A stretch of 64,000 bases of DNA, from positions 620,001 to 684,000 of the forward strand of contig VWND01000067.1 of NCBI GenBank assembly GCA_009599575.1. The letters run 5' to 3'. Shown here piece by piece: positions 9,950 to 63,500 of the stretch. Both the position numbers and the translations under genes were made by a program. Below the pieces are notes generated by a model. That model had not been told where the DNA came from. It ran no database searches and saw nothing but the letters and a program-made list of their open reading frames with translations. The DNA is from Blumeriella jaapii (lineage: Eukaryota; Ascomycota; Leotiomycetes; Helotiales; Drepanopezizaceae). Position 1 is the stretch's first letter; each line of letters starts with the position of its first letter.

Positions 9950-10819
9950 TGAAATTATTCGAGAAAAAAACGATTTTAAATTAAAGAAAAATCAAAAAGA
10001 AATTTACAACACAGCGGTCAATTTAGCCGAAAAAAAAAATCTTCGGAAAAAATCAGTTTTTTAGCTTTTACTATAAAAACCCAAAAATTAAAACGACGAA
10101 ACTGCTTTTATACGGCTATAAAAGCGTTAAAAATAAAAATAATACTTAAAAAAAGTACGACCGCTTTCGTTTTATTCGATAATAAAACCGAAATTAATTA
10201 TATAAATCAAAAAACAACCGAAATTAATAATATTCCGATTATCACCGATAAACGAATAATTTATACGACCGTTAATAAAAATACTATTAAATTTAATAAA
10301 ATTATACGAAACGTTAAAATCGACGTTAAAAATATTATTATTTATAAAGATTTTTTAATAATAAAAAAATGCTTTTATTTTATTATTTTTAAAATGCTTT
10401 GGATTTTAAAATGTTTCGTCAGTTTTAAATATACCGAGAACGGATAAATAAAAGCTTTTTTTTAAAATTAAAACCGATTTTTTTAAAATTAAATCATCGT
10501 CGCCGGCGATAAAGTTTTTTTAATCGACGTTTTATCGGAAAACGAATAGCCGGCTTTAGCCCCAGGACAAACGCTAAACTATAACAAAACCTGGAAAATA
10601 CTCGGCTAAAAGCATTTACGTTATTAATAGAAATAGCACCGCGAATAAAATTAGCTAATATTAATATTTTTAATTATTAACTCGGAAATAAAAGTTCCGA
10701 AAATTTCGTTTTCGTATTAAACAAACCCGATTTATATATTTTATTTTTTTGTATTAATATTAGCATTTTTTACAAGCGCAAAGCTAATAAAATACAATTC
10801 GTAAATCTTAGTAAATCCG
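9950..10819 (+). pseudogene. D1 protease and PR-RT linker
   Basis: Retropepsin-like block with the loop FDNKTEINY (10178-10186 marks the DNK triplet). The expected D-S-G has become D-N-K through G-to-A changes. It is followed by KMLWILK, which corresponds to the LGMPWL motif of gypsy proteases. The linker holds one 33 bp palindrome-ended insert (10614-10646) in the Pol frame and is interrupted at 10819 by element B; it resumes at 24649. Confidence 0.75.
10614..10646 (+). repeat. 33 bp insert, D linker position (D1)
   Basis: Ends ATTTACG / GCGAAT; equals the D3 copy 50338-50370 apart from RIP-type changes. In the D Pol frame it reads F-T-L-L-I-E-I-A-P-R-I. Confidence 0.7.
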
Positions 10820-11232
10820 TATCAGGAACCAACATCACGTGTATAAATCAGGTGATCCGCCAAGACCTTCTGCCTCCTACCAACCCTCGAATAGCATTTT
10901 CTGCGGATAGGCCGTAAGGGCCGGATAGTATTATAAAAGCTGGAAATAATATTTAGGTAAAATATTCTATAAGAATAATTGCTAAGAAACCAGTTATTAG
11001 AATTATATTAAAAAAAATAAAAAAAGGTCGGGATGGAGGCTGGAAAAGCATACTAAATAAGATTCGCCTGGTTTTTTAGAAAATATTTTTTTCGAAGGCT
11101 TCACCCTTCCTTTTGTACTTATATACGCCTTTTATTAAAAATGTAAAAAATAAAAATTAATCTGACTATTAACCCAATTTTATCTAAGCTTTATTATTTG
11201 AACTAATATTTTCCTGCTTTTTAATTTTTACA
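10820..11232 (+). repeat. 5' LTR of B
   Basis: Starts TATCAGGAACC (TGTCAGGAACC in the solo copy) and ends TTTTTACA. The outer half is lightly mutated and the inner half heavily so; the 3' LTR shows the reverse pattern. Confidence 0.93.
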
Positions 11233-11389
11233 TTTTGATTTTTTTATTCACCGGAACGGCAGTTCGATATTATTAAAACAATTTTTTATTATATTACTAT
11301 ATTTATATTATTATTATCGATATTATAGTTTTTCGCATTCGCAGAAAACAAACATTTCTAGCTACTTAAAAAGACCTAGCATTTTCGGC

Positions 11390-12521
11390 TGCTTAAAAAA
11401 ACCCCGTACCATCGTTTTCCTTAACGTCACCAGCCTTATTAAAGGTCGAAAATACCTTATTATCAGAACGCGACGATTTTCCAACTTTTTTTATCGAAGA
11501 AATTATTAAAAAAAGCCACGCTCAAAACGATTCGAAAAAACCTTTTACCGAAACCCTGATTTATTTAGCTAATAAACGAATCCGCGCCGAACAAAAAAAA
11601 AACGATAAACGTAAAAAAGTAAAAAAAATACGAATTAAAATAAAACAAAAAAAAACTAAAAAAAAAGTTTACGAAATAATCAAAAGATTCGAAAAAACTA
11701 AAAAACGCCGAAACGAACTCCGAAAAAAAATTAAACAATTCCAACGAAAACTCGACGCTTTCGAAAATATCGAAAAAAAAGTTTTTATATTTTTTAACAC
11801 CGTCTCAACTGAAAAAAAACAGAAAATAACCTAAGCCGGCGATTATTATAAAGTATTTTCGAAGCATTACGATAATAATATTTATTAAAAACGATCTAGC
11901 ATCTTTTTTAAATATATTATATTTTTTATAAAAAACACAGCGAATTCGAACCGAAAAGCATCAAAAATAAAAGATTTTCCAATATATCGAAGGAAAAATA
12001 TTAAAAAAGCTTAATTTTTTATTCGGCGTGCAAAGCGAAATTTCCGCCAAAATAAAAAAATAATATTTTATATTAATTAAAAAAAATTAACGCCTATATT
12101 TTAGCTTTCGACGATAAAATAAAAAAAAAGTGAACCGGATACGAACGACGTTTTACGAATATTCGAATTATATAAAACGATTTTAAAAAATAAATATTAA
12201 ATTTTTTAATAAATGCGAAAAATCGAGAAATCGCGGCTTCGAATTTATACGATAAAACAAAGCAAAAAAAACATAAATTAATTAACGATTTCGTTGCTTA
12301 TTTAAATAACTTCGAATAGCAGTTGCAAATAACAAACGATACGATTAAAAAAAAAATGCTTTTCGCAAAACTCCGATCTATTTTTCGAAAAAAAATTATT
12401 AAACGAAGCAATATTACAGCTATAAGCTCGCACGAAAAATTAATATTAATCGCTCGTCGTATCGAAAATACTAATAAAATTATTAACGACGAAACGAAAA
12501 ATAATAAACGACGAAACGAAC

Positions 12522-12554
<33 letters not shown>

Positions 12555-12600
12555 TATATTTACGATTAAAACTTAAAGGCTAAAACAGATATATACCGTT
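11390..12600 (+). pseudogene. gag: B gag, basic and coiled-coil rich
   Basis: A long stretch open apart from scattered stops. Codons 11490-11800 encode a highly charged Lys/Arg/Glu region that looks like a coiled coil. From about 12290 a segment reads DFVAYLNNFE followed by MLFAKLRSIF, which fits the retrotransposon Gag capsid pattern. An A-rich run (12526-12553) gives a poly-Lys tract in one ORF. The knuckle follows at 12765-12806. Confidence 0.7.
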
Positions 12601-12764
12601 TTCGATTCGAAAATACGTTATAAAAAAAAAAACGAAAGCGAAAAAACGATAATTTTAATAAAATTTTTTGGAATTTTAAAATTTCTAACGATTTTTTTTA
12701 CTTTTCGAAATGCAATCGCTGCTAAAAAAAAAAGCATCGCATAGCTAATTATTTAAAAATCGAA

Positions 12765-12806
12765 TATTATAAATATAACAAAAAAAGATATATAATTTTA
12801 AACTGC
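12765..12806 (+). other. B nucleocapsid knuckle, three ligands lost
   Basis: Reads Y-x2-Y-x4-Y-x4-C in place of C-x2-C-x4-H-x4-C. Each Tyr can come from Cys (TGY to TAY) or His (CAY to TAY) by one RIP-type transition. Confidence 0.6.
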
Positions 12807-12899
12807 TCCGAAGCTAATAAATCTAAAAATTCGGGAAAAACTTCCGTTCGATTTTAATTTCGTCGCTGCTAATAAAATCGAACGAAAAAGAAAAGCAGA

Positions 12900-13548
12900 A
12901 AATAATAATTTTAATCGAAATTAAAAAAGCCAAAAGCGAAATTCGTACGAAACGAGCTTTTATCGACTGCGGCGCGGAAAAAAACTGCGTAATTCAAAAG
13001 TTATTAATTAAATATAAATAAAAACCAATTTAAAAACGTATTAATTTATCTACGATTAAAAAAAAAAAAGTAATTATTTACGGCACGCATACGCAATTTA
13101 TTTGCGCTATTAATAATTATAAAATAATTAAAAAAATACAAAACGATTTTATAATTTGTAATATAAATATTCTAAAAATTTTATTTATTTTAGGATTTTT
13201 TTAATTACGAAATATCGATTCCGCTATAAGCTTTCGAATTAAATCGTAGCGATATTTAATCGAACGCTTATAATTTAATTTCGTTATAATCAAACGTTTT
13301 AAAAAAAAATCCAAAAAAAAGCAAGCGTTTTGTATCGTTTTAAAAAAAGCTACTGAAAAACAATATTAATTACCTTTTAAATACGACGACTACGCCGACG
13401 TATTCGACGATACCGCCGCGGTTACTCTAGCTTTTCATCATTTTATAAAACATCGAATAAATTTCGCGGAAAAAAAAAACTTTTTTTTAAAATTAATTTA
13501 CTTTTTGTCGGAATTTAAACTCACCGAATTGCGCGAATATTTCGATTC
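12900..13548 (+). pseudogene. B protease and start of RT
   Basis: Retropepsin loop AFIDCGAEKNC near 12955-12990 (DCG in place of D-S/T-G). The frame runs on through a typical gypsy connector; near 13390 YADVFDDTAAVTLAFHH matches the segment that precedes RT in chromoviruses. It is interrupted by C2 at 13549 inside the duplicated GATTC and resumes at 20014. Confidence 0.75.
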
Positions 13549-13842
13549 TGTGACGATTCACTCTGTTGCCACCTCTCGTGTCACCCCAGCAACTACGTAT
13601 AGCTGCAAGCTTCCCAGCAACTACGTATAGCTGCAAGCTTCCTGGTCTCCTGGTGGGTTTCCCCATCAACTATGGAGACTATCATATATATAAGGCTTTT
13701 TTCCCTTAGCAACCTCTGCCTTCTGCAGTTGTTGATTCTAAATAAATATCTTTGTTACAGAACCAAAGGCTCGTTTTATACTATATGAACACGGCGACCA
13801 GTTGATTGATTTCCCAGCCTTCCGATTAATTAGATCGTTATA
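13549..13842 (+). repeat. 5' LTR of C2, two-unit form
   Basis: TGTGACGA...TCGTTATA, with two copies of the 28 bp unit. A TATA-like TATATATAAGG lies near 13690. Mutations cluster in the inner half. Confidence 0.95.
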
Positions 13843-13934
13843 TTATTAACAACTCTTTTTCTACGCTGGCGACGGCGTAAACTATTTTTTTTCTCGAATT
13901 CTTCACGGGTCACACCAAAATGATCGACCGGTCG
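13843..13934 (+). other. C2 leader with hairpin and self-complementary site
   Basis: Holds a short stem TACGC-8 nt-GCGTA near 13862-13880 and the 10 bp palindrome CGACCGGTCG (13925-13934). Both are conserved in C3, C4 and C6. Their place between the 5' LTR and gag suggests an RNA structure; dimer-initiation or packaging roles are only inferred. Confidence 0.6.
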
Positions 13935-15450
13935 TGAAAAGGCTTATTTTCGCATTTCGCGAAAAATGGCATCTGTTTAACGATTTTCCCCTCAGCAAAG
14001 CTTTTCAGCTTCTGCTACTACATTATAACCTTCTTTTTTTCAATCAGCGAAAAATCAGCCTCCCCCAAAAGCTTTTTCTTTTAAAAAACAGTCCTCCCCC
14101 CGAAAAAAAAAAAACAAAGGAAAAGGCAGAGCGCCAACCATTTCGCCTGCCATCTTTTCCTTGCAGCCTAGCGCTGAAAGCATTCAGTTGAAACTTTTGC
14201 AAAATTAACTGAAAGAAGCGCAAAAGCGTGAACGACAACTTCTGGAGATTATACGACTGCGACAGACCTTTTAATTAGAGCGTTTGATAAAATTTATCGA
14301 ACGTGCTTTTGCTAGTCGCGAATCTGCTGCTTCTTTTCGCAACGTTTTATTTTAATTAACAGACGCTGCAGATTAATTTCCACGCTTTTCGCGAATTCTT
14401 TTTAAATCTTTCCATAACGGCCAAAACTTTAGCGCGCTTTTTAAACGCTATGATTTCTATTTATTTGCTGACTTTCGATTAGCTCGCATAAAGCGCGTTC
14501 CGAATCTTAAGTTTAAGCTAAATGATAGTAAAGATTACAAAGCACGCTATTAGAAAATTAGAGTTTTCGACAACCTCGAATTTTACTACGACTATTTCGC
14601 TGGCGATCGATTTCGCAAGAATTATATATTCGATCAGACCGAAAGCGTGGCAAAAGAGTTTCTGACCCTTCGTATTTTAGACCGCTCCGATTCTACTTTT
14701 TTCGAAGAATTAGTTAAAAAGATCGCCGATTTCCTGGCCGACCCTTCCGACGTTCAGAGGGCCGAAGACGAGTTTAAAATGCTTGCAATAAATACGTACG
14801 ACGACTTTTAGCGCTTTTACCTGCGATTTTCCATTTTCGCAGCGAACGTTTAAATACGGACCGATAAACAGCTTCGGGACGCCCTCCGCGACAAAATACC
14901 AAAGCGTCTACGAGAAAAGTTGCATTTGGAATAGGCGCGTACAACGACTTTTAAAAATTGGCTTACCGCCGTCCGTTAAAAAAAACAAGGTCAGTTGGCT
15001 GAACGAATTTTATACGCGAATCGTTTTTTAACCAAATTTATTATTCATTAAAATGGTAGGTTTTTAACCAAAGCGTACTACGAGTTAAATCGTACGTACG
15101 AAAGTCGTTCTGATGCTCCACAGGCTTTTTTTCAGCCCTCTGTTTTTTCTTCTTCTCCACGCCAGAACGCCCTTCCTGGCGTTTTTCCTTTTCGATCGGA
15201 CCAACGACAACGCTCGTCCTTTATTTTATACCAGAAGGTTCGAGGCCAATCTGCACGACCTTTTACGGGCCGATCCTCGGTTCCATCCAAAGATCTTTTC
15301 AGGCTGGTAGATATAAACGAGATCGAGCCGGCCGAAAATTCGCCTTCTGATAATAATAGTGAAAACGAAAACCTCTTTCCAAACGATTTCCAAAACGCAT
15401 ATAAAGAAGTTGAAGGCTTTCCCGCCAGTCGAAAAAACGCCCAGGCCTAA
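13934..15450 (+). pseudogene. gag: C2 gag
   Basis: The frame used from about 14180 to 15450 contains long conserved-looking capsid sequence (for example FDNLEFYYDYFAGDRFRKN near 14560 and a matrix-like KRERQLLEII start), with about nine stops. An ATG-like ORF at 13934-14191 in another frame may be the original N-terminus. I see no CCHC knuckle. The C-terminal part is acidic (SDNNSENENLF). The start codon is uncertain. Confidence 0.7.
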
Positions 15451-15464
15451 GCAAAGCCTTTTTT

Positions 15465-16320
15465 TTGGGCGTGTTGCGCGATATGCGTTACTTTGACGTT
15501 CGAAAGCTTTTTGATGGCGATTTATTAATAATTCCCGTTATATTTATTAAAAATAGCTTTTCGTACAAAATGAAAGCGCTCGCCGATTTTGGAGCGAACG
15601 GTTATGCGTTGATCGATTCGGCGCTGATTAAATCCTTTTTTTTTTTTTTAAAACCTTTGATTTAATTTTTTCCGGCTTCTTTTCTTATAAAAAGGTATAA
15701 TAAAGCTCGTGGCTATTTAATTATATATTTTACGCTTTTCAATTTTATTATTAATAATCGAATATAATCGTTTTATTTTTTTTTTGATTACTAATTTCGG
15801 AAATTATGGTGTGATTTTAGGAAGAGCTTGGCTGGCCGAACACCAAGTTTTACTAGACTGTAATAAACGCAAGCTTTATTGGCCGAAGTCTTACTTCTCC
15901 ACAGTTTTTTACGCTCGTTGTATTAAAGTTTTTTATTTGCACCCCCGAAAGATTCAATTTCGCTATTAAAACGACGCTATGAGACGTGACAAAAACCTTG
16001 ACCAATTGTGGCAGACTTACGACGCTGTGCGAAGCGCGAAAAGGTCGAATTTTATTCGCGGTGCCAATTTCGATGGCGACGCCAGTGGGATAATACAAGA
16101 AATTACACCACCTTTCCAGGCTGCCGATCCTCCTTCTATTATTTCTTTTCTTTTTTTTTTTTTTTCGTCAGAACAGTTTTCTCGTTTTACGAAAAACAGT
16201 TATATTAAAAACCGAAGAAAAGCTTTCGCCGCGATGGCCTTTCAGCTTAATATAATCGATAATTCAGATAAGCCATCTTTTGAACCTTTTAAACGACCAG
16301 TTCGAAAACGAGTCCCTTAA
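15465..16320 (+). pseudogene. C2 protease and PR-RT linker
   Basis: Retropepsin loop LADFGANGYALID at about 15582-15620 (DFG triplet 15585-15593; Ser to Phe fits TCT to TTT). After a frame break between 15665 and 15784 the flap and hydrophobic VILGRAWLAEHQ motif follow (15784-15969). The linker ORF 15979-16320 contains the 33 bp insert at 16054-16086. Confidence 0.75.
16054..16086 (-). repeat. 33 bp insert, C linker position (C2)
   Basis: Starts ATTCGCGGTGCC and ends GGCGACGCCAGT, i.e. inverted relative to the D copies. In the C Pol frame it reads R-G-A-N-F-D-G-D-A-S, so it preserves the frame on the opposite strand from D. Confidence 0.65.
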
Positions 16321-24648: not shown

Positions 24649-26384
24649 TTAAAAATATTTCCGAAAAAATAAACGATTAATTCGAAAAAAACGAAGCAAT
24701 AAAACTATTTTAATTAATTATTAGCGAACTCGATGAATTTATTACCGGCCGATTTTTCAATTTATTATTTAGCAGCCGATTTACAAAAAAACGATTTAAT
24801 AATTTAGCAATCGAAATCCAATTTTTATTAAAAAAAAAAAAGTATTATACGAAGTTTTACGTAACCGCGAAAAAGCTATAGCTTTCGATTTTACCGAAAT
24901 AAGCCAATTCAGCTTTAACGTTACGTTTTATATCGATATCAAAATCGTATTTTATAAAGCTTGGCAAAAAGACTTTTTCAGTTTTTAAAACTTTTTAAAA
25001 TAAAATAATCGAAATGCTGAAAAAGCGAATTAAATAAAAAATTTTCGAATTTTACTACGGCTTATATAAAAACAAATAATTTATCGTTGCGAAAAAAAAA
25101 AAAAGCATTTACAAATTTATTATCGTAATCGTCGAAATAAATAAAATAACGATACGAAACGCTAACGTGCTATTTAACGTCGATTAATTTTCAAACGAAT
25201 TCGCAAAATTAATAATCGCTTTTTTTTTCGATTTATTTTCCGGCTACGATTATTTGATATTTAATTTACGATTTCGAAATATAACGGCGATTTAAATTTT
25301 AATCGGTTTATTACGTATAACGAAAATATTTATAAAAGCTATTAATTTAATCGCTTAATTTGTAAAAATCGTATATAAAATCCTTATAATTTATATTTCT
25401 GATATTGCTTTTTTTACGTTAACGACGTTAAAATAAAAAATTTCAAATTATATTATAATAATAAAAATTTTTTTTCTGAAATTCGACGCTACATAATAAA
25501 ATATATTTAAAACATCGACAAAATTATAATTTATTTCGAAAAAGCCAAAGTTATTATTGGCCTTCGATTAAAATTCTGCATGCCCGAAATAAATATCGTT
25601 AGTTATATAATTAATAGCGCTGGCCGCTACTTTTAACGAAAGAAAATTAAAAAAATTTGCGAATAAAAAAGGTATAAAAATATTACCGAAGCCAAAGCTT
25701 TTATTAACGTTGTGATTTATTATCGCAATTGAATTAAAAACTTTTTTCAGAAAGCTGTATTTATTTACGCTATAATAAAAAAAAAATCGATTTCGTTTAG
25801 GGAAAAAAGCAAAGCAAAGTTATAAAAGTTTTTAAAAACGATTTTTTATCGGTTTTATCGCTTATGCGAATCGATTATAACTCAAACGCAAAAAAAATCA
25901 TTTTAATTATCGACGCCAGTATTTTCGGTTGAAAAGCTGTATTATAACAAATCGACGAAAATAAAAAACGATATTTTTTACGATTCGAAAGCGGATTATA
26001 AACTTTCGCAAAAGTACGCTACGATACTATCAATCGAAAATATCGAAGCGCTTTTAAAATAATAAAAAAAATAAAAAACGAATTATACGACGTATATTTT
26101 ATTTTAAAAACAAACGCAAAAATTCTTATCGATTAATTAAATAAAAAAATTAATAATTTATTAAAAGCGCTTATTATTAATTAAATAACTTAAATGCGAT
26201 TTATAAACTTCGAAATCAGGCATATTAAAAAAACAATTAATACAGCGGCAAACGGCTTTTTCAAACGAAAACGTTTTTATTCGTTTGATTTCGCTAAATA
26301 AAACGAATAAAATATCGACGAATAAATCGCTAACGAAATCGACTGTTTCGTTATTTACGCTTTAGATTTTATAAAGCCGAAATT
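24649..26384 (+). pseudogene. D1 reverse transcriptase and RNase H
   Basis: Continues D1 pol after B. Block order: ISEKINDQFEK connector, AFDFTEI, then NKITIRNANVLFNVD, DLFSGYDY, a GLLRITKIFIKA segment, the catalytic FYVNDVKIK (Asn-Asp at 25421-25426), KFCMPEINIVSYI, and later RNase H remnants. These are the signatures of the fungal gypsy group with F-x-D-D-V. The first catalytic Asp appears as Asn (G-to-A). Many stops. Collinear with D2 32690-34420 and D3. Confidence 0.85.
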
Positions 26385-26417
26385 ATTCGCGTTACTATTT
26401 CGGCTGGCATCGCGAAT
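26385..26417 (+). repeat. 33 bp insert, D RNase H-IN linker, first copy (D1)
   Basis: ATTCGCG...CGCGAAT, exactly 33 bp; reads F-A-L-L-F-R-L-A-S-R-I in the Pol frame. Its pair is 30 bp downstream. Confidence 0.75.
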
Positions 26418-26447: not shown

Positions 26448-26480
26448 ATTCGCGTTATTATTTCGGCTGGCACCGCGAAT
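26448..26480 (+). repeat. 33 bp insert, D RNase H-IN linker, second copy (D1)
   Basis: ATTCGCG...CGCGAAT, differs from the first copy at three positions; reads F-A-L-L-F-R-L-A-P-R-M. Confidence 0.75.
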
Positions 26481-28571: not shown

Positions 28572-31500
28572 CAATTTTTCCGAGTTTCAACAAATATATA
28601 ATGTTGCTATTTCAAATTAACAAACAGCTTTTGTAAAAACATTTATAAAACAATTCGAAATAATAATTGAAAACGTTAATAAATTTTTATTCGATTACGA
28701 AAGCTTTATTAAAACTGAATTCGTTCGCAAAAGCTTTAATTACGATAAGTTTCTGCTGAATTACGATAACGCTTCAAAAGCTTTCGCTGAAGCAAAAAAA
28801 GCTCGAAATAATAAAAAGAAAATAACAGACCGAATTTTGCGCTTTTTGCTAAATTAACAAAAAATAATATTTAAAAATACGTTTTTAGCAATGTTACCGG
28901 TATTATTTTATTTCGGCATTTCGCTCGCTTTTTCGAAACTATTACTTTTATTAAAAAAAAAGTTTGGATATTAAACGCTTATATTTTGAAAACGCAAGCT
29001 TTAAAAATTAATAATTTAAAAATCCGCAAATTTATAAGCTTTTTTACAGCTGTTTGCAAACTGGTCGACGACGTTATATAATCGCTAAAAAAATTTTAAT
29101 CGGCTGCGAAACTTTAAATCTGACTTTTTTTTAAAGCAAAAAATTAAGCGTTGCTAAATGCGAATTTTTTATATTAAAAAAAAAACGATATTATTAATTA
29201 CGACGACGAAAAAAACGAAAAAGCTAATATTATTTTCGTTTAATTCGAAAAAACATACGCGGTAGCAATTAATATTTCTAAAGCAGCTAAAACTATTCGG
29301 CGATTTTTATTTTTAATTATCGAAAACGAATTCGAAAACGAAATTAAAAGCGTAATAGCAAACAATCGTTTATTCGAATATAAAAAACTTATTATATTTA
29401 TAAAAACGATTCCGAAAAAAATAAAAACAAAAAACGTAAAAAAGCGCGCCGATATTTTCGAAACTTTTTTATTCGAAAAAAAAAATCATTCGCGTCGTTA
29501 GCAAAAAAAGCATCGCGAATAAAAACAGCCGAAAATCGACGCCGAGCTATAACTTTTAAACTAATTAATAAAAAACGCGACGATTTTATAAAATCAAATT
29601 TAAAAAATTTCGGCATTTCGAAAAAAAAAATTTAAACGATTTTAAATTTGATTTTTCGAAATTAAATACGCAAATATTAAAAACGCTTGCTGCGTTAAAA
29701 AACGTCGTATTATTATCGCTAATATTTTCAATTTTAATAAAAGCATTTAAAATTTCGATTATTATACGATTCGACCGAAAAAGCTTAAAAAAAAATATCG
29801 AAGTTATCGCGAAAAAAATTATACAAAAAGCATAAAATCAGATTATTTTATTTAAAACTTTCGCTTTCGACGATATTACGATTTAAAAATTTTATTTCGA
29901 TACTTTTATATAAAAACCAAATAAATTCGTCAGCTTTTTTTTTTTTATTCCGAACGAAAACTAAATTAAGCTTTTTTCGAAAAACTGCAAATATAATACG
30001 CCGGAACAGATAAAAAAAACTTTTGAAAACGGTAACCCGTTTTTATTCGAGTTTTTTTTCGTTGAAAAACTTCGATTTTTTAATTTCGTTTTTACGAATA
30101 ACGTTAGTACTAAAAAAAACGGTAAGTTTTGCTATTTTTACATACGCTATTACGCGGCGTATTGCGATTTAATTATAAAAAAAATCGACGTTATCGGCTT
30201 TGCTAATCGATTCGCTGTTATTAAAAATTCGGATTACGACGTATTCGAAATTAATTTTAATAATTAATTTATATTCCGACGAAAAACTGCGAAAACTATT
30301 AAAGCGCGTGCTAAAGTTTATTTAAGCTACGCAAATTTTAAAACAAATTTTAAAACTTTTAGCGCGATTATAAAATTCGACTAAAATAAAAAAAAGTAAA
30401 AGCAACGAATATTTTTAAAAGCCGATTTTTTTGGCTTTTCGACCGAAAGTGTATTTTAAAATCTAATTAAATTAAGCTGCGAATTCGTTAATTACGTAAG
30501 GTTTTACAACGGAAAAAACAAACTATTGCTATATTTTATAAAAAAAAAAAATATATATATATAAGCATTATTTCCGACTGGTTAAAATTCAAAAAGCGCT
30601 TATAGCTTTTTTCGCTAATATATTATACAATTTCAATTAGTAAATTTTTAAAATATATTCCGGCTTTTATTTCGCTGTTTTGATTATTCGGAACCTCGGA
30701 AACTGCTGCTTCGTGGCTTATTTTAACGTTCCGATCGTTTTAAATTTCGCTGGTTCCGATTATATTACAATTACAAAATTCGATATCGCCGATTTTTAAA
30801 AAAAAGGAAAAATCGAAAACCTTATCGACGCCATTTTCGATTACTACGTTCTGCTTGTATTCGCATATAATTCGGAAATAATCGAAGCTTATTTGCAATT
30901 ATATTACGACGCCAAGCTAATTAAAACTATTTAAAAAAGCTTAGCTTTTTCGTATTTTAACGCGTTTAAAATAATAGCTTTAATTATTTCATCGGATTAC
31001 GAAACCGAAAGTTACGAAATAAAAAACGCAATAATTTCTGTCAGCTTTTCGACTAAACAAAAAATATTCGTCAGATTTAAAATTTAAAAAACCGACGGCG
31101 CGATGCTAATTTATTCGAATAATTATACGGCGCAAAAGTACAAAAACTATTTCGAAAACGACGCTTCGATAAACAATCTGATATTGTTTATATTGCGACG
31201 AAAATAATTATAATATTTTCGGTAGTTTCGATTGCAAACGATTATTTCCGAATTATTTCGTAAAATAATTTTTTTTACAGACTTCGAAGCTTTTTCGAAA
31301 GCATTCGTCGGTAAACAGCCGTAATCCGACCTATTAGTTTTACGCGAAGCAAAAGCGTTAATCGGTTTTAATTACGACAAACTAATCGATTACTTTTATA
31401 ATTTTAATATAAAACTTTTTAGCGCCTTTTGCAAAGCGTAAAACTATATACACAAGCTAGAATTTATTATTTACGAAAAAAAGTCGTAGAAAGCTTTCGT

Positions 31501-32492: not shown

Positions 32493-32525
32493 ATTTACGT
32501 CGTTAATTAAAATAGCTACGCGAAA
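32493..32525 (+). repeat. 33 bp insert, D linker position (D2)
   Basis: Decayed: ends ATTTACG / GCGAAA; same place as in D1 and D3. Confidence 0.55.
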
Positions 32526-34423
32526 AAAAATAATTAATATTAATATTTTTGATTATTAATTCGGAAACGAAAGTTCCGAAAGTTTTTTTTTCGTATTAAA
32601 TAAGTCCGATTTATATATATATATTTTTTTTGTATTAATATTAGCATTTTTTACAAGCGCAAAACTAATAAAATACGATTCGTAATTTTTAATAAATCCG
32701 TTAAAAATATTTCCGAAAAAATAAACGATTAATTCGAAAAAAAGAAAGCGGCAAAATTATTTTATTTAATTACCGGCGAATTCGAAGGATTTATTACCGG
32801 CCGATTTTTCAGTTTATTATTTAGCAGCCGAATTACAAAAAAACGATTTAATAATTTAGCAATCGGAATTTAATTTTTATTAAAAAAAAAAAAAATTTAC
32901 GAAATTTTACGCAATCGAAAAAAAGCTATAGCTTTCGATTTTACCGAAATAAGCTAATTTAGTTTTAACGTTACGTTTATTATCGATATTAAAATCGTAT
33001 TTTACGAAGCTTAGCAAAAAAAAACCTTTTCAGTTTCTAAAACTTTTTAAAATAAAATAATCGAAATATTAAAAAAACGAATTAAGCAAGGGATTTTCGA
33101 ATTTTGCCACGGCCTATATAAAAACAAATGATTTATTATTACGAAAAAAAAAAAGCATTTACAAATTTATTATCGCAATCGTCGAAATAAACAAAATAAC
33201 GATACGAAACGCTTACGTATTATTTAACGTCGATTAATTTTTAAACGAATTCGCAAAACTAACGATCGCTTTTTTTTTCGATTTGTTTTTAAACTACGAT
33301 TATTTAATGCTTAACCTACGATTTCGAAATATAACGGCAATTTAAATTTTAATCGCTTTGCTGCGTATAACGAAAATATTTATAAAAACTATTAATTCAA
33401 TCGCTTAATTTGTAAAAATCGTATATAAAATTTTTATAATTTGTATTTTTGATATTGCTTTTTTTACGTTAACGAAGTCGGAATAAAAAGTTTTAAAATT
33501 ATATTATAATAATAAAAAGATTTTTTTGAAATTCGACGTTATATAATAAAATATATTTAAAACATCGATAAAATTATAATTTGCTTCGAAAAAGCCAAAA
33601 CTATTATTAACTTTCGATTAAAATTTTGCATATCCGAAATAAATATCGTTGGTTATATAATTATCAACGTTAATCGCTATTTTTAACGAAAAAAAAATTA
33701 AAAAAATATGTGAATAAAAAAAGTATAAAAATATTACCGAAACTTAAATTTTTATTAGCGTTGTGATTTATTATCGCAATTAAATTAAATCTTTTTTTAA
33801 AAAGCTGTATTTATTTACGTTATAATAAAAAAAAATCGATTTCGTTAAAAAAAAAAAAAAATTAAAGCTATAAAAATTTTTAAAAACAATTTTTTATCAG
33901 CTTTATCGTTTATACGGATCGATTACAACCCAAACGCAAAAAAAATCATTTTAATTATCGACGCTAATATTTTCGATTAAACAATTATATTATAATGAAT
34001 CGACGAAAATAAAAAACGATATTTTTTACGATTCGAAAACGGTTTATAATTTTCCGCGGAAATACGCTACGATATTATTAAACGAAAATATCGAGGCGTT
34101 TTTTTTAAAAAAAAAAACGAATTATATAACGTATATTTTATTTTAAAAACAAACGCAAAAGTTTTTATCGATTAATTAAATAAAAAAATTAATAATTTAT
34201 CAAAAACATTTGTTATTAATTAAATAGCTTAAATAAGATTTATAAATTTCGAAATCAAGCATATTAAAAAAACGATTAATTTAATTGCAAACGGCTTTTT
34301 CAAATGAAAACGCTTTTATCCGTTTGATTTCGCTAAATAAAACGAATAAAATATCGACGAATAAATCGCTAACAAAATCGGCTATTTCGCTATTTACGAT
34401 TTGAATTTTACAAAGCCGAAATT

Positions 34424-34456
34424 ATTCGCGTTGCTATTTCGGCTGGCACCGCGATT
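34424..34456 (+). repeat. 33 bp insert, D RNase H-IN linker, first copy (D2)
   Basis: ATTCGCG...GCGATT, 33 bp, orthologous to 26385-26417. Confidence 0.65.
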
Positions 34457-34487: not shown

Positions 34488-34520
34488 ATTCGCGTTATTA
34501 TTTCGGCTGGCATCGCGAAT
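34488..34520 (+). repeat. 33 bp insert, D RNase H-IN linker, second copy (D2)
   Basis: ATTCGCG...CGCGAAT, 33 bp, orthologous to 26448-26480. Confidence 0.7.
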
Positions 34521-45300: not shown

Positions 45301-46210
45301 ATAATAATTTAGCAAATGGAAATTGAATAAGCAATAAATTAAAAGATTCATTTTCGAACTAATCGTTTAAAAATTTAAAAAATAGCTTATTTAAATTATC
45401 GATTATATTAAACTGAAAGGCTATCGCGGCGAAAGTTTTTTTTCGGTTTTTAATATAATTATTTTTCGTAAAACGAGAAAATTGTTTTAACGAAAGGGAA
45501 AAAAAAAAAACGAAATAATAAAAAAAGGATCGGCAGCTTAAAAAAATAGTGTAATTTCTTATATTATTTTATTAGCGTCGCTATCGAAATTGGCACCGCG
45601 AATAAAATTCGACCTTTTCGCGCTTCGCATAACGTCGTAAATCTGCCACAATTAATTAAGGTTTTTGTTACGTTTTACAGCGTCGTTTTAATAGCGAAAT
45701 TAAATTTTTCGGAAATGCAAATAAAAGATTTTAATACAACGAGCGTAAAAAGCTATAAAAGAATAAGATTTCGGCTAATAAAGCTTGCTTTTATTACAGT
45801 TTAATAAAATTTAATATTCGGCTAACCAAGCTTTTTTTAGAATTTTATTATGATTTCCGAAATTAATAATCAAAAAAAAGTAAACGATTGTATTCGATAA
45901 TTAATAATAAAATTAAAAAGCGTAAAATGTATAATTAAATGGCCACGAGTTTTATTATACTTTTTTACAAAAAAAAAAGCCGGAAAAAATTAAATCAAAG
46001 GTTTTAAAAAAAAAAATTCTATCAGCGCCGAATCGATTAACGCATAACCGTTTGCTTTAGAATCGGCGAGCGCTTTTATTTTATACGAAAAATTATTTTT
46101 AATAAATATAACGAAAATTATTAATAAATCGCTATTAAAAAGCTTTCGAACGTTAAAATAACGCATATCGCGTAATACGCTTAAAAAAAAAGTTTTGCTT
46201 AGGCTTAAGC
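45300..46210 (-). pseudogene. C3 protease and linker
   Basis: Collinear with C2 15465-16500; holds the 33 bp insert at 45571-45603 and the retropepsin region near 46030-46110. Confidence 0.7.
45571..45603 (+). repeat. 33 bp insert, C linker position (C3)
   Basis: ATTAGCG...CGCGAAT, 33 bp. On this strand it matches the D copies directly because C3 itself is inverted. Confidence 0.7.
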
Positions 46211-49676: not shown

Positions 49677-50780
49677 AAATTATTCGAAAAAAAAACATTT
49701 TGAATTGGAAAAAAATCAGAAAAAAATTTATAATATCGCAATCAATTTAGCCGACGAGAAAAAATCTTCGGAAAAAGTCAGTTTTTTGGCTTTTATTATA
49801 AAAACCCAAAAATCGAAACGACGAAACTGTTTTTACACGATTATAAAAGTATTAAAAATAAAAATAATGCTTAAGAAAAATACGACCGCTTTCGTTTTAT
49901 TCGATAATAAAGCCGAAATTAATTGTATAAACCAAAAAACAACCGAAGCTAATAGGATTCCGATTATTATCGCTAAATAAATAATTTATATTATCATTAA
50001 TAGAAATATTATTAAATTTGATAAAATTATACGAAATATAAAAATCGACGTTGAAAATATAATTATTTATAAAAAAATTTAATAATAAAAAAATGCTTTT
50101 ATTTTATTATTTTTAAAATGCTTTGGATTTTAGAAAATTTCTTTAGTTTCAAATATACCGAAAACGATTAAATAAAAGCTTTTTTTTAAAACTGAAATCG
50201 ATTTTTCGAAAATCAAATTATCGTCGCCGGCGATAAAATCTTTTTAATCGACGTTTTATCGGAAAACGAATAATCGGCTTTGGTTTTAAAACAAATGTTA
50301 AGCTATAATAAAACCTGAAAAATATTTAATTAAAAGCATTCGCGTCGCTAATGGAAATGGCTACGCGAATAAAAATAATTAATATTAACATTTTAATTAT
50401 TAGCTTGGAAACGAAAACTGCGAAATTTTCGTTTTCGTATTAAATAAACCCGGTTTATATATGTTATTTTTTTTTATTAATATTAACATTTTTTATAAAC
50501 GCAAAACCAATAAAATACGATTCGTGAATTTTAGTAAATTCGTTAAAAATATTTTCGAAAAAATAAACGATTAGTTCGAAAAAAACGAAGCAGCAACACC
50601 ATTTTAATTAATTATTAGCGAATTCGAAAAATTTATTACCGGCCGATTTTCCAGCTTATTATTTAAAAGCCGATTAATAAAAAAAACGATTTAATAATTT
50701 AGCAATCGAAATTTAATTTTTATTAAAAAAAAAAAGGTTTTATACGAGATTTTACGCAACCGAAAATAAACTATAGCTTT
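49677..50780 (+). pseudogene. D3 protease and linker
   Basis: Open 49677-49977 within a longer ORF: KNQKKIYNIAINLADEKK, KAEINCINQKTTEANRIPIII. The retropepsin triplet is DNK as in D1. Then KMLWILENF and the linker with the best 33 bp insert (50338-50370), the KNIFEKIND connector and the start of the RT leader, up to the GCTTT duplicated by G. Confidence 0.8.
50338..50370 (+). repeat. 33 bp insert, D linker position (D3)
   Basis: Cleanest copy: ATTCGCGTCGCTA - 8 nt - GGCTACGCGAAT. Reads F-A-S-L-M-E-M-A-T-R-I in the Pol frame. Confidence 0.75.
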
Positions 50781-54243: not shown

Positions 54244-57200
54244 TTTTGTTCCAAATAATATACGTAATCGTTTTTAATTACGATCAAAAAAAAATATAAT
54301 TTTAATAAATGCAATTTAATTTATTTTATATAATTTAAAAACCAATTAATTAAAAACCGAACTTTTTAGTTTTATATTTTTTCGGTTTTTTAATTCGTTT
54401 TTGGCCTTTTTTCTGTTGGCTTTTATGGAAAAATAGCGTTTCGCTTATCGTTTAAATTATTTTGTTTATTTTGCTTTTTTAAAAAATAATTCGATAAAAT
54501 ATCAGTCGAAATATCGTTTAAATTTACGAACGTTTTAATAATTTTTTCGTCGATAATATTATTAAATATCGCCGCGACGGATGCTTTCTACGACTTTTCT
54601 TCGTAAATAATGATTTTTAATTTTTAAACGTAATTTTACGCTTTGCAAAAAGCGCTGAAAAATCTTGTATTAAAATCGTAAAAATAATCGATTAGTTCGT
54701 CGTAATTAAAATCGATTAACGCTTTTGCTTCGCGTAAAACTGATAGATCGGATTACGATTGTTTATCGACGAATGCTTTTAAAAAGGCTCCGAAGCTTAT
54801 AAAAAAAATTATTTTTACGAAATAATTCGGAAATAATCGTTTGCAATCGAAACTATCGAAAATATTATAATTATTTTCGTCGCAAAACAAATAATATCAG
54901 ATTATTTATCGGAGCGTCGTTTTCGAAATAATTTTTATATTTTTGCGCCGTATAATTATTCGAATAAATTAGTATTGCGCCGTCGGTTTTTTGGGTTTTA
55001 AATCTGACGAAATTCTTTTGCTTAGTCGAAAAACTAATAAAATTATTTTATTTTTTATTTCGTAGCTTTCGGTTTCGTAGTCCGATAAAATAGCTAAGGC
55101 TATTGCTTTAAACGCGCTGAAATACAAAAAAGCTAAATTTTTTTAAATGATTTTAATTAGCTTAGCGTCGTGGTGTAATTGCAAATAAGCTTCGATTATT
55201 TCCGAATTATATGCGAATACAAGCAAAACGTAATAATCGAAAATAGCGTCGGTAAAATCTTCGATTTTTGTTTTTTTTAAAAATCGGCGATATCGAATTT
55301 TATTATTGTAATACGATCGGAATCAGCGAAATCTAAAGCGATCGAAACGTTAAAATATGTTACGAAGCAGCAGTTTCTAAGATTTCGAATAATTAAAACA
55401 GCGAAATAAAAGCCGGAAAGTATTTTAAAAGCTTGCTAAATGAAATTGTATAATATATTAGCGAAAAAAGCTATAAGCGCTTTTTAAATTTTAATTAATC
55501 GGAAATAATATTTATATATAATTTTTTTTTTTTTATGAAATACAGCAATAATTTGTTTTTTCCGTTGTACGACTTTACGTAATTAACGAATTCGCAATTT
55601 AATTCGAATAAATTCTAAAATATATTTTCGGTCGAAAAGCCAGAAAAGTCGGCTTTTAAAAATACTCGTTGCTTCCATTTTTTTACGTTTTAATCGAATT
55701 TTATAATCGTGCTGAAAGCTTTAAAATCTGTTTTAAAATTTGCGTAGCTTAAATAAGTTTTAATACGCGTTTTAATAAATTTCGCAGTTTTTCGTCGAAA
55801 TATAAACTAATTATTAAAATCAATTTCGAATACGTCGTAATTCGAATTTCTGATAACAGCGAATCGATTAGCGAAGCCGATAACGTTAATTTTTTTTATA
55901 ATTAAATCGCAGTATATTATATAATAACGTACGTAAAAATAGCAGAATTTGCCGTTTTTTTTAGCGTTAACGTTATTCGTAAAAACGAAATTAAAAAATC
56001 GGAGTTTTTTAGCGAAAAAAAGCTCGAGTAAAAACGGGTCAACGTTTTTAAAAGTTTTTTTTATTTGCTTTAACGTATTATATTTGTAATTTTCCGAAAA
56101 AAGCTTATTTTAATTTTCGTTCGAAGCCAAAAAAAAAAGCTAACGGATTTATTTGATTTTTATATAAAAGTATCGAAATAAAACTTTTAAATCGTATCGT
56201 CGTCGAAAGCGAAAGTTTTAAGCAAAATAATTTGATTTTGTATTTTTTATATAATTTTTTCCGCGATAATTTCGATATTTTTTTCCAAGCTTTTTCGGTC
56301 GAATCGTATAATAATCGAGATTTTAAATATTTTTATTAAAATCTAAAATATTAACGATAATAATACGACGTTTTTAAACGCAGCAAGCGTTTTTAATATT
56401 TGCGTATTTAATTTCGAAAAATTAAATTTAAAATCGTTTAAATTTTTTTTTTTCGAAATGCCGCGGTTTTTTAAATTTGATTTTGTAAAATCGTCGCGTC
56501 TTTTGTTAATTAGCTTAAAAGCTATAATTCGGCGTCGATTTCCGGCTGTTTTTATTCGCGGTGCCTTTTGCTAACGACGCGAATAATTTTTTTTTCGAAC
56601 AAAAAAAATTTCGAAAATATCGGCGCGTTTTTTTACGTTTTTTGTTTTTATTTTTTACGGAATCGTTTTTATAAATATAATAAATTTTTTGTATTCGAAT
56701 AAGCGATTATTTATTATTACGCTTTTAATTTCGTTTTCGGATTCGTTTTCGATAATTAAAAATAAAAGTCGTCGAATTGTTTTAGCTGCTTTAAAAATAT
56801 TAATTGCTACCGCGTATATTTTCTCGAATTAAACGAAGATAATATTAGCTTTTTCGTTTTTTTCGTCGTCGTAAATTTGAAATATTGGAATAGGATCGTT
56901 TTTTTTTTTCGATATAAAAATGCCGCATTTAGCGACGCTTAATTTTTTGTTTTAAAAAAAAATCAGATTTAGAGTTTCGCAGCCGATTAAAATTTCTTTT
57001 AACGATTGCATAGCGTCGTCGATTAATTTGCAAACAATTATAAAAAAGCATGTGAATCTGCGAGCTTTTGGATTATTAGCTTTTAGAATTTGCGTTTTAA
57101 AAATATAAGCGTTTAATATTCAGATTTTTTTTTTGTAAAAATAATAATTTCGAAAAAGCGAGCGAAATGCCGGAATAAAATAATACCGATGATTTTGCTA

Positions 57201-57610: not shown

Positions 57611-57707
57611 AGTTTATTACATTTATCTTCGATATTCCGATTTCAGCGTATACGCGTAAGAAATAATCGAACTTTCGGCGCGAATAATCACGTCGAAAAC
57701 CGTCAAA

Positions 57708-58073: not shown

Positions 58074-59079
58074 AAAGAAGGAGAAAACTCGCGTAACAGA
58101 TTTTTTATATTTTCGGAAATCGACGTTGATTATTTGAATATTCGAAAATCACAAACATCGAATTTCTTTTTTTAAAAATCACAAGACCTTGAGTTAAATT
58201 ACGATCAAGATTTTAAAAAAGATCTTTCCGAAAATTTTTTTTCATCTGGAAAATTATTTCCTTTTTTATTAAAACCTTTCGAATTTGCGCGCCCGCGCAA
58301 AATAGCTATAATTTTTATAAATTTTTTTAAAATTACAAAGCTAAAAAGCGCTGATAATTATTAATTATAAAAGGATAAGATTATATTTATCGCAAATACA
58401 AATCATTTGGCCAAGTTTTTGGATCCAAAGTCGAGGTTATATACTTCGGCTAAAATAAACGAATAAAATAAAAACCATTTCGCTGCTATATTTAAGATAT
58501 AGCAGGATTGGAATTCCGGTGATTTTTAAATGAAATTTATGATATTTGCGAATTGTAAGCCTGGCCTAAAAAAATATATTATTAGAAAAAAAACTGTTTT
58601 TAATATATAAAAGTTTTTATAATAATAATATAAGGATTTTGGAACAGTTCTGAAATACAACGCAATTTAAAACTACGTTATTATTAATTACGACGATTAC
58701 TTTTTATTCGAAAAGTTTATTCAAGCTTTCCGACTTTCTGTTACGAAGCTAAAAGCTTTAAATATCGCTCCATTTGTATAATAGAACTCAGTTATGTTTA
58801 TTGCCGTATATTTAGAAAAGTACGCTATATAGGCCGAACGCTAACGAATTTTACTTCGAACTTTTAAATTAAAATCTAAGATTATTTTTGAGAGTTTAAT
58901 TGAAAATATTATAAATAAAACTCGTACGAGCGAATTTATTAAAATTAACAATAATTAAGCCTTATATGGTAACAAGTTTAATTCTGCTATTAATAAAAAT
59001 AAAAGCGGAGGAAATAACTAAAATAACAACGCTAACGCTAATAAAAAAAATAATAATAACAAAGCAAAAAAAGACAATT

Positions 59080-59210
59080 CCAAGCCACTTTACGCTATTG
59101 CATGCAAATACTACAAGCAAAAAAAGCCTTGGCATAAGCATAACGATTGCTTCAAGATTAACAAAAAAAAGCGAAAGGCTTAGGAGAAGCGTATAAAAAA
59201 GAAATATACT
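59080..59210 (+). pseudogene. F nucleocapsid knuckle region
   Basis: Reads C-x2-Y-x6-H-x4-C at 59103-59150 (ACKYYKQKKPWHKHNDCFK), fitting the knuckle of fungal copia Gag with the second Cys changed to Tyr (TGC to TAC). A Lys-rich tail follows (KINKKKRKA). Confidence 0.6.
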
Positions 59211-59369
59211 GCTTTTAAAAAAACGTTAAAGAAAAAGTCTTTTGACGACGATAAAAAAAAAAGTGTTCGGTGGACTAATAGTTTTTATTAAATTGCCTCC
59301 TGACGTTATTACCTTTGAAAACATATCTTTCATAATATACACGGATTTTACTTTTTATTCGCTACAATT

Positions 59370-59410
59370 ATCAATTTATTATATTTGATTCGGGAAATTC
59401 GTTTTTTTCC
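59370..59410 (+). pseudogene. Possible F protease start
   Basis: FIIFDSGNS with DSG at 59387-59395, the expected place and motif for a copia protease. Only about 12 codons fit before the sequence changes character; weak. Confidence 0.35.
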
Positions 59411-60310
59411 GAATCTCGAAGAATCAGCTCGAAAGCTCGTCGCGTTCGCCGTGCAGCTTGCGAAATAATTTTTTTCGTTTTTTTTCGGTCGTCCGACGAT
59501 TACGACCACGACCACGACGAATTATATATTCGTTTTATAAACGCAATCTTACCGTTTTAATTGAATTTGCATTTCAAAAAAAAAAAGCAGACGAATATTT
59601 TTAACATTCGCTTTTTTTTTTCGTTTTAAAATACGAAGCGCGAATATTTATTATTGCAACGTCGGCTATTATCAGCCAGCTCGACGAAGCAAACCGACAG
59701 TTTTAAATACGCCGTAAAATATAAATACAATTCGCAATCGCTGCCGATAGCGTCGTAAATTAGCAGAAAAAACCCGAAGCGCGATAATACGCCGAAAAGC
59801 TTGCAAAAGGCCTTATTTCTTTTTTGTAAATCCGCGCTTTTATTACTTTTTTCGCCGCTTCGCTAAATAGCATCGATTTTTTTTTTTTTGCTAAATTAAT
59901 TATTTAAGCAAACCGAGTTTTACGAAAAGTTTTAAAAACTTTAACAAATTTCGAAAAATTAAAATCGATTATCGTTAAAAAGCTATAATAATAAACGCGT
60001 CCGTTTATCAGCGGAATCTTACGCGTTTTTTTAAATTCGTTTATCGAAAACCAATTAGCAAAAGTTCGACAAAATTATCGCTTTTTAATTACGTCGGCGA
60101 AAAGCATTTTGCTAAACAAATTTAACACTTTTGTTTTTAAATAAAAAATCGCGAAGTTTATACCGAGCTTAACGAAAAACGCGATTAAAAATCTAACGCT
60201 TACGAAAATAAGCTAAGCTTTTTATTTAATCGATTTAAAAACCAAAATTTTTTTTATTATTTAAAAAAACGTCGAAGTTTTTCGCAAAATACTCGGAGCT
60301 ATCGTCGTAC
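59400..60310 (+). other. Unassigned region H
   Basis: No match seen to families A to G. Decayed but protein-like plus-strand frames: DDYDHDHDELYIRFINA near 59495, KSFKNFNKFRKIKIDYR near 59925 and NREVYTELNEK near 60150, each broken by stops. CpG-rich against an AT background, like other mutated elements here. Probably part of another retrotransposon (gag-like), cut on the right by D6. Confidence 0.4.
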
Positions 60311-60577
60311 TATAAAAGTAGGTAGGAAAACCAGACTAATACGGCCATATGTCGGTGGGTAAGATAGTCTAGGGAATCCCTAGAAAAGACTGAAAAAAGG
60401 AAAAAAAAAATGAATAAAAATATAAATTAAACTGCGTACCTATAATACTATCTAAAAGAGTGTTTTGCTTTTATATCTGTTAAAAGTAATTAATAGCAGG
60501 GGGTCTCGGAAGAATTTATGCTTCGATCATAGCTAAAACTACCAGCTTTTATTAATACAAAGTATTATCGTTTTATA
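60311..60577 (-). repeat. 3' LTR of D6
   Basis: 267 bp, on the plus strand TATAAAAGTAGG...CGTTTTATA. Lightly mutated toward its outer (left) end. Confidence 0.92.
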
Positions 60578-63500
60578 TTCTGTCCTAAATAATATACGTA
60601 ATCGTTTTTAACTACGACCAAAAAAAGATATAATTTTAATAAATATAATCTAGTTTATTTTATATAATTTAAAAACCAATTATTTAAAAACCGAACTTTT
60701 TAGCTTTTATATTCCTTTAGTTTTCTAATTCGTTTTTGATCTTTTCGCTGTTGGCTTCTGCGAAAAAATAGCGTTTCGCTTATCGTTTAAATCATTTTGT
60801 TTATTCTGCTTTTTTAAAAAATGGCTCGATAAAATATCAGTCGAAATATCGTTTAAATTTACGAACGTTCTGATCGCTTTTTCGTCGATAATATTATTAA
60901 ACGTCGCCGCGACGAATGCTTTTTACGATTTTTCTCCGTAGATAATAAATTCCAGCTTCTGAACGTAGTTTTACGTTTTGTAAAAAACGTTAAAAAGTCT
61001 TATATTAAAATTATAAAAATAATCGACTAGTTCGTTGTAATTAAAACCGATTAACGCTTTTGCTTCGCGTAAAACTAATAGGTCGGATTACGGTTGTTTA
61101 TCGACGAATACTTTTAAAAAAGCTTCGAAACCTATAAAAAAAATTATTCTACGGAATAGTTCGGAAATAATCGTTTGCAATCGAAACCATCGAAAATGCT
61201 ATGATTGCTTTCGTCGCAGTACAAACAATATTAAATAATTTATCGAAGCGTCGTTTTCGAAATAGTTTTATACTTTTGCGTCGTATAATTATTCGAATAA
61301 ATTAGCATCGCGCCGTCGGTTTTTTAAATTTTAAATCTGACGAAAACCTTTTGCTTAGTCGAAAAGCTGACAGAAATTATTTTATTTTTTATTTCGTAAT
61401 TTTCGATTTCGTAATCCGATGAAATAACCGAGGCCATTGCTTTAGACGCGCTGAAATATAAAAAAGCTAAGCTTTTTTAAATAATTTTAATTAACTTAGC
61501 GTCGTAATATAATTGCAAATAAGCTTCGATTATTTCCGAATTATATGCGAATGCAAGCAGAACGTAATAATCGAAAATAGCGTCGGTAAAGTTTTCGATC
61601 TTTTCCTTTTTTTAAAAATCGGCGATATCGAATTTTGTAACTGTAATACGGTCGGAGCCAGCAAAACCTAAAGCGATCGGAACGTTAAAATATGCTACGA
61701 AGCGGCAGTTTCCAAAGTTCCGAATAATCAAAGCAGCGAAATAAAAGCCGGAATGCATTTTAAAAACTTATTAAATAAAATTATAAAGCATATTAGCGAA
61801 AAAAGCTATAAGCGCTTTTTAAGTTTTAATTAATCGGAAATAATATTTATATATAGCTACTTTTTTTTTATAAAATACAATAATAACTTGTTTTTTTCGT
61901 TATAAAATTCTACGTAATTAACGAATTCGCAGTTTAATTTAAATAAATTTTAAAATATTTTTTCGGTCGAAAAACCAAAAAAGTCGGCTTTTAGAAATAT
62001 TCGTTGCTTTTATTTTTTTACGTTTTAATCGAGCTTTATAATCGCGCTAAAAACTTTAGGATCTGCTTTAAAATTTGCGTAGCCCAAATAAGCTTTAATA
62101 CGCGTTTAAATAATTTTCGCAGTTTTTCGTCGAAATATAAATTAATTATTAAAATTAATTTCGAATACGTCGTAGTCCGAATTTTTAATAATAGCGAATC
62201 GATTAGCAAAATCGATAACGTTAATTTTTTTTATAATTAAATCGTAATACGCCGCGTAATAGCGTATATAAAAATAGCAGAATTTGCCGTTTTTTTTAAC
62301 GTTAACGTTATTCGTAAAAACGAAATTAAAAAATCGGAGTTTTTTAACGAAAAAAAATTCGAATAAAAACGGATTACCGTTTTTAAAAGTTTTTTTTATT
62401 TATTTTAGCGTATTATATTTGCAATTTTCCGAAAAAAATTTAATTTAGTTTTCGTTCGAAGCAAAAAAAAAAAGCTAACGGATTTATTTGGTTTTTATAT
62501 AAAAATATCGAAGTAAAATTTCTGAATCGTTTCGTCGTCGAAAGCGAAAGTTTTAAGCAAAATAATTTAATTTTATATTTTTTATATAATTTTTTTCGCG
62601 ATAATTTCGATATTTTTTTTCAGGCTTTTTCGATCGAATCGTATAATAATCGAAATCTTAAACGCTTTTATTAAAATCTAAAATATTAACGATAATAATA
62701 CGACGTTTTTAAACGTAGCAAACGTTTTTAATATTTGCGTATTTAATTTCGAAAAATCAGATTTAAAATCGTTTAAATCTTTTTTTTTCGGAATGCCGGC
62801 GTTTTTTAAATTTGATTTCGTAAAATCGTCGCGTTTTTTATTAATTAATTTAAAGCTTGTAATTCGGCGTCGATTTCCGGCTGTTTTTATTCGCGGTGCT
62901 TTTTTTGCTAGCGACGTAAATGGTTTTTTTTTTCAAACAAAAAAAGTTTCGAAAATATCGGCGCGCTTTTTTGCGTTTTTTGTTTTTATTTTTTCCGAAA
63001 TCGTTTTTATAAATATAATAGATTTTTTATATTCGAATAATCGATTGTTTGCCGTTACGCTTTTAATTTCGTTTTCGAATTCGTTTTCGATAATTAAAAA
63101 TAAAAATCGCCGAATTATTTTAACTGTTTTAAAAGTATTAATTATTATTGCGTATATTTTTTCGAATTAAACGAGAATAATATTAGCTTTTTCGTTTTTT
63201 TCGTCGTTGTAAATTTGAAATATCGGAATGGCGTCGTTTTTTTTTTTCGATATAAAAATGCCGTATTTGGCGACGCTTAGTTTTTTATTTTAAAAAAAAA
63301 TCAGATTTAAAATTTCGCAGCCGATTAAAACTTTTTTTAACGATTGCATAACGTCGTCGATCAGTTTGCAAACCGCTGTAAAAAAGCTTGTAAATCTGCG
63401 GGCTTTTAAATTATTAGCTTTTAAAATTTGCGTTTTAAAAATATAAGCGTTTAATATCCAAATTCTTTTTTTAATAAAAGTAATAATTTCGAAAAAGCGA

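Follow-up and report, generated by a model that had tools for sequence, protein, structure and literature searches.

A short palindromic segment within the open reading frames of two retrotransposon families of Blumeriella jaapii

Segments in the window and their host elements

We analysed a stretch of 64,000 nucleotides from the ascomycete Blumeriella jaapii (contig VWND01000067.1 of assembly GCA_009599575.1, positions 620,001 to 684,000), here called the window. It carries copies of two families of long terminal repeat (LTR) retrotransposons, D and C, and within their open reading frames (ORFs) a recurrent 33-bp segment with ends close to ATTCGCG and CGCGAAT. A related segment is present at all twelve places given in a preliminary description of this DNA, each of 33 bp except for one of 31 bp, whereas the exact ends claimed there hold for five of the twelve at 33 bp and for the 31-bp copy, the other six having one to three end mismatches. 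The copies, with the protease-reverse transcriptase (PR-RT) and RNase H-integrase (RNase H-IN) linkers of the elements, are as follows.

10614..10646, + strand: family D, site B (PR-RT linker), decayed, two end mismatches
16054..16086, - strand: family C, PR-RT linker of an element on the + strand, inverted relative to D, right end CGCCAGT
26385..26417, + strand: family D, site A1 (RNase H-IN linker), ends exact
26448..26480, + strand: family D, site A2, ends exact, 63 bp past A1
29488..29520, + strand: family D, site C (3' ORF), ends exact, 3.04 kb past A2
32493..32525, + strand: family D, site B, decayed, three end mismatches
34424..34456, + strand: family D, site A1, with CGCGATT at the right end and a gap of 34 between the flanks
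34488..34520, + strand: family D, site A2, ends exact
45571..45603, + strand: family C, element on the - strand, inverted segment, one end mismatch
50338..50370, + strand: family D, site B, ends exact
56554..56584, - strand: family D, site C, 31-bp version, core shortened
62889..62921, - strand: family D, site C, two end mismatches

The assignment of these copies to five element positions in two families proved correct as far as domains could be named. In the D copies of the loci fetched, the plan is B, 1945-1947 bp, A1, 63 bp, A2, 3.03-3.07 kb, C. Ten pieces were compared with Pfam, which gave weak protease and RNase H signals in D (E 0.014-0.023, below the cut-off), consistent with PR-B-RT-RNase H-A-IN-3' ORF as the order of parts; the RT and integrase of this family are named by known motifs only. 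Nothing matched in the four of the ten pieces that hold the segment, and the RT of a C-family window copy was strongly recognized (2.3e-20). One D copy, L086 (C91:469500-469790), has a single palindromic unit in place of the A1-A2 pair and is 63 bp shorter, which may represent an older state or a recombination product.

Family C, which is large (676 candidates, 40 of which were scored), has the fifth site in its PR-RT linker. Two open frames that overlap, one of 550 residues and one of at least 445, are present in one copy. Stops make up 42 of 2961 codons in the frame taken as Pol, compared with 84 of 2982 and 173 of 2968 for the two alternative sense frames, and this frame was chosen because it has the fewest stops and includes the 550-residue open frame. 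Five C-family copies on different contigs (L048, L049, L050, L053 and L057) are identical across the linker stretch compared, which suggests recent activity.

At all five sites the segment lies in an open frame, in line with the earlier remark that its length keeps the frame. The peptide previously described for family D was recovered in column summaries, which read F-A-x-[LP]-x3-A-P-R-[VI], with S often in place of P and I often in place of V in decayed copies. The segment of family C is indeed inverted and its frame open, the Pol frame crossing it as TRGANFDGDAS. Palindromic ends, also part of the preliminary description, are found in family D, but the well-preserved copies of family C have ACTCGCG...CGCCAGT, an inexact palindrome.

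Anatomy, decay and genome-wide occurrence

The best-preserved D form approximates ACTCGCGTCGCCA-7-TGGCACCGCGAGT, with 13-bp arms around a 7-bp core, and the C-family form, oriented as D, is ACTGGCGTCGCCATCGAAATTGGCACCGCGAGT. In D the arms fail to pair at two neighbouring positions, to which family C adds one more. The cores differ by site (TYTCGGC at A, ATCGARA at B, GCARRAA with variants at C, and TCGAAAT in family C). When A1, B, C and the C-family site are compared, variation affects four of 26 arm columns versus all seven core columns (p 8e-5), or two of 26 versus four of seven when transversions alone are counted (p 0.01), in a test that uses one set of summary sequences and treats the sites as independent. 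A conserved stem with a variable loop, a trait of mobile hairpin elements such as GC clusters and double hairpin-forming elements, is thus a property of the segment as well.

Conserved inverted arms and a variable core also characterize lox and FRT sites. The 13-7-13 layout and the contrast between arms and core would accordingly suit a recombinase-type site bound by a hypothetical protein, which we consider very unlikely, and the single unit of L086 needs no more than ordinary recombination, or the survival of an older state with one unit, to account for it.

In the columns of the D sites, C/T variation affects one of 46 C before G versus 68 of 86 C in other contexts, a C-to-T decay sparing CpG that resembles repeat-induced point mutation as its putative pathway. 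Because this decay spares CpG, CGCG survives at either end of decayed copies, which makes them over-uniform there, and the ATTCGCG/CGCGAAT ends are partly a mutation product. The GC content of the window is 29.5%; of eight 10-kb stretches taken from parts of contig C1 where no match was listed, seven have 47-55% and the eighth 38%.

The source assembly comprises 47.4 Mb in 91 contigs and represents the genome of one strain. Its branched-chain dehydrogenase E2 gene shares 80% identity with that of Drepanopeziza brunnea, the first named among the 120 hits listed of 7145, which places the host in the Helotiales or close to them. ATTCGCG-N19-CGCGAAT, the pattern that the preliminary description proposed for a genome-wide search, matches it 1083 times and the reversed control not once, and five third-order Markov versions of the window hold no exact-end match of 27-40 bp. 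Other spacings gave six matches for 0-18 (control one) and five for 20-49 (control two), five of these eleven being segment variants one or two bases longer or shorter. That the similarity is accidental and was merely accentuated in AT-rich DNA by mutation sparing CpG is highly improbable: CGCG does resist the mutation, the C-family ends are only partly palindromic and a single decayed B copy does no better than shuffles, but the reversed-pattern, Markov and shuffle controls speak against it, and for the D sites it is contradicted.

Exact-form matches on contig C1 (3.09 Mb) were listed up to 2.99 Mb; all 53 places there were fetched, and all are D sites (16 A1, 19 A2, 7 B and 11 C). A decay-tolerant pattern gave 1008 matches, which were assigned to sites by core with the flanks of most unread: 681 with core A, 93 with core B and 201 with core C (975 together), and 33 without such a core. 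The pattern for well-preserved ends occurs at four places, all four of them D sites, and the well-preserved form with up to two mismatches has 123 matches, with middles of the D or C-family kind among the 100 listed. An exclusion pattern for other contexts (position 15 = R) yielded 16 matches, the middles of which all look like mutated D-site cores. No copy in a host gene was seen among the places read, most pattern matches being assigned by core alone and strongly diverged copies escaping the pattern searches used throughout. Bacterial and archaeal genomes and IMG/VR gave no match with one pattern each. Single arms in the window and twelve 10-kb loci (threshold 11) are at chance level, eight lying outside flank-anchored copies compared with five in one Markov run, and five of these eight sit in two window copies with altered length or end. 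In what was searched and read, the segment is confined to two LTR-retrotransposon families.

Other palindromic stretches were noted as well. An imperfect palindrome of 38 bp, TTTTATTCG...CGAATAAAA, lies at 26275-26312, 72 bp before A1, and is matched in a second D copy at 34314-34351. The D 3' ORF holds a 48-bp palindrome, ATTTCGAAAA...TTTTCGAAAT, in two copies (29615-29662 and 56411-56459). A partly palindromic, GCGATARTATCGCGAATTTGCTAGCGATCG-like stretch recurs in another repeat (window 8316; L006 9436; L008 8369; L009 8007; L010 8979; L013 3066). The 28-bp matches that came up in the Markov check are located in the D integrase region, as named by a known motif, and look unrelated to the segment. 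ARAGORN in its bacterial setting found no tRNA genes in the window; a tRNA primer was considered as a candidate source of TGGCACC.

Relation between the sites at the DNA and peptide level

On the opposite strand, the 44-base column summary of site B aligns with the C-family locus L081 at a local score of 53, compared with a maximum of 29 in 1000 shuffles (mean 19.0, standard deviation 2.2). In this alignment, which is based on the column summary and not on a single copy, 33 of 36 columns match with two one-base gaps, and the match extends six bases beyond the 33 bp. The summaries of the other D sites score 44 (site C; shuffle maximum 29), 33 (A2; 28) and 34 (A1; 33) against L081. Real strings back the match between the families, namely the C-family copies, the well-preserved pattern matches and a window BLAST alignment of a C-family copy with a D site-C copy (E 0.002). 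Our data show a relation between the sites at the DNA level, the segment being inverted in family C and read there in another frame.

All five sites have the codons GCG, GCA, CCG and CGA in common, and four of them also share CCA. FAx[PL]-x3-APRV is encoded in the column summaries of all four D sites; the same peptide at all sites thus holds in D and fails in C. A peptide motif alone is insufficient, because site B matches the C-family site in reverse orientation, in which the reading frame yields a different peptide. This bears on a selected D module, which would have been duplicated in D and captured once by C. It might be an RNA hairpin or a repeated linker peptide, for instance one cleaved by the protease where PR meets RT and RNase H meets IN. 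The sites lie at or near domain junctions, as judged by the weak domain signals, and in D they share one frame and orientation with K-[AP]-F-A-x-[PL]-x3-A-P-R-V in the column summaries. However, the sites differ completely in the core but by no synonymous change in their common codons for A, A, P and R; the C-family sense peptide is of another kind, and the 3' ORF site is at no known junction, so that we regard such a module as rather unlikely.

The preliminary description had also considered that homologous elements of other species might encode the peptide as a conserved Pol motif. None of the 120 homologues listed (of 303 hits) carries the C-family or the D peptide, many of them spanning the RT alone and not the linker, and homologues of the D RNase H-IN ORF were absent among 242 candidates. 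In 37 of 40 C-family homologues the PR-RT linker measures 22-426 residues by a rough pattern, a wide range that marks a tolerant place. The first named relative, from Diplocarpon coronariae, has a shorter linker at the place of the segment, which is no clean empty site because this linker varies so widely in length.

Origin of the segment and comparison with known palindromic elements

The family D loci were picked for carrying the segment at one site at least, the unselected sample being the window and the extra sites within fetched loci; the C-family copies are 20 of the 40 matches listed (676 candidates) to a query that includes the segment. When the flanks alone were used and the arms not required, they enclosed exactly 33 bp in 27 A1, 29 A2, 19 B, 30 C and 22 C-family copies (127 in total; the C-family tally is 22, not 23, since L048 and L081 are the same copy). 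Eight more flank pairings lie 30-39 bp apart, and none is shorter than 30 bp. A laxer search (E up to 10) produced pairings at -10 to 19 bp, mostly at 18 bp for B, which were not individually read and were taken as noise, being gone at E 0.01. The empty sites that had been named as support for insertion were not found, in a test that is biased since the presence of the segment was itself the reason for selecting most loci. By eye, no target-site duplication was seen in the five flank sets.

The best explanation, which we put forward tentatively, is that two ancestral LTR retrotransposons, one for each family, received a palindrome in their ORF linkers by copying as DNA or cDNA, and that it was then amplified passively. 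A hairpin-capable palindrome would have been copied into the linkers at the DNA or cDNA level in at least three events in D (B, A and C) and, inverted, in one event in family C, whereas the A1/A2 pair probably arose by local 63-bp duplication. The copies would then have multiplied solely through host transposition and may later have decayed alongside their hosts by C-to-T mutation sparing CpG. A candidate route is perhaps hairpin-provoked template switching in reverse transcription, favoured since it would keep the segment within retroelements, admit both strands and work without a transposase. That the sites arose through insertion, how many events there were and which route they took are what we infer. 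Copying in reverse transcription fits better than a nuclear transposase because of the restriction to two retroelement families, both strands, the hairpin and the lack of a visible flanking duplication. It seems unlikely that the segment is a nuclear, protein-coding palindromic element, a miniature passenger which moves as RNA or cDNA from one retrotransposon genome to another and nowhere else, keeping its arms and renewing its core each time.

Several points weigh against passive copying into linkers. There is no empty site in the data, so that insertion is a deduction. Among five folded copies, two have z scores of -3.0 and -3.35, but three reach only -1.1 to -1.8. A real B copy, L087 (33 bp), scores 27 against L081 and does not exceed its shuffle maximum of 30, and the score of A1 barely exceeds that of its shuffles. 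In ungapped comparisons each of the four D sites tops its 1000 shuffles by one match, and the best match of A1 is on the opposite strand from those of A2, B and C. The D sites agree in orientation and frame, which fits internal duplication or peptide selection, and their similarity continues beyond the 33 bp, on the right with 4-7/12 columns versus 2-5/12 further out and on the left with 2-7/10 columns versus 1-5/10 further out. The shared frame and orientation together with this similarity make internal duplication in D more plausible than a series of random insertions independent of each other.

Miniature inverted-repeat transposable elements (MITEs) are short and have inverted-repeat ends; the segment is shorter still, without target-site duplication or dispersal seen. 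A mobile palindromic element akin to MITEs or to Rickettsia palindromic elements (RPEs), now extinct, could have been inserted into the retrotransposons by a trans-acting transposase, with frame-neutral linker insertions surviving. The inverted arms, the near-fixed length, both orientations and two host families are consistent with such an element, and five to six of six frames are open in the column summaries, but this openness is ordinary (11-49% of shuffles). None was seen outside the two families in the pattern searches, which miss strongly diverged copies, and neither an empty site in the biased sample nor a target duplication by eye was found. We judge this origin unlikely. RPEs likewise share sites among the rickettsial orthologues compared, and fixed sites alone are no exclusion (PMC3767692).

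RPEs are palindromic repeats within ORFs which keep the frame and occupy the same site in the orthologues compared (PMC3767692, PMC10969869), and for a rickettsial gene with an RPE insert, rickettsial orthologues carry one at the same locus (PMC3767692). The segment resembles them in being palindromic, in lying in ORFs, in keeping the frame and in its fixed sites, and would resemble them in its insertion. It differs in length, RPEs having 100-150 bp and the segment 33 bp, and in its hosts, RPEs occurring in unrelated host genes whereas the segment was seen only in two retrotransposon families. The RPE-like interpretation first given to this DNA thus stands for a palindromic segment at the DNA level, in two families, both orientations and two frames with the frame kept, but not for an element spreading through the genome, all 53 places listed on contig C1 being D sites and 975 of the 1008 decay-tolerant matches having D cores. 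RPE-like mobility is not shown, and the segment looks like an old passenger of retrotransposons.

Mobile GC clusters of yeast mitochondria are palindromic, 30-80 bp long and in some cases within a protein gene, including VAR1 (PMC4464245). They are mitochondrial, with about 120 per strain at mostly strain-variable positions, whereas the segment is nuclear with fixed sites. The mitochondrial repetitive or double hairpin-forming elements of Allomyces and sponges have conserved stems and variable loops, and for those of Allomyces a route through an RNA intermediate was suggested, flanking duplications being absent (PMC2800124). These elements are organellar and mostly outside protein genes, whereas the segment is nuclear and in ORFs. 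No nuclear fungal counterpart turned up in a literature search, most subscription papers being beyond its reach.

Palindromes within protein genes have already been described in Rickettsia and in organelles. Our data furthermore carry the warning that CpG-sparing decay can sharpen the apparent ends of a motif. A nuclear case limited to retrotransposon polyproteins would show how short stretches of DNA can pass by copying from one retroelement to another, and also how polyprotein linkers gain length.

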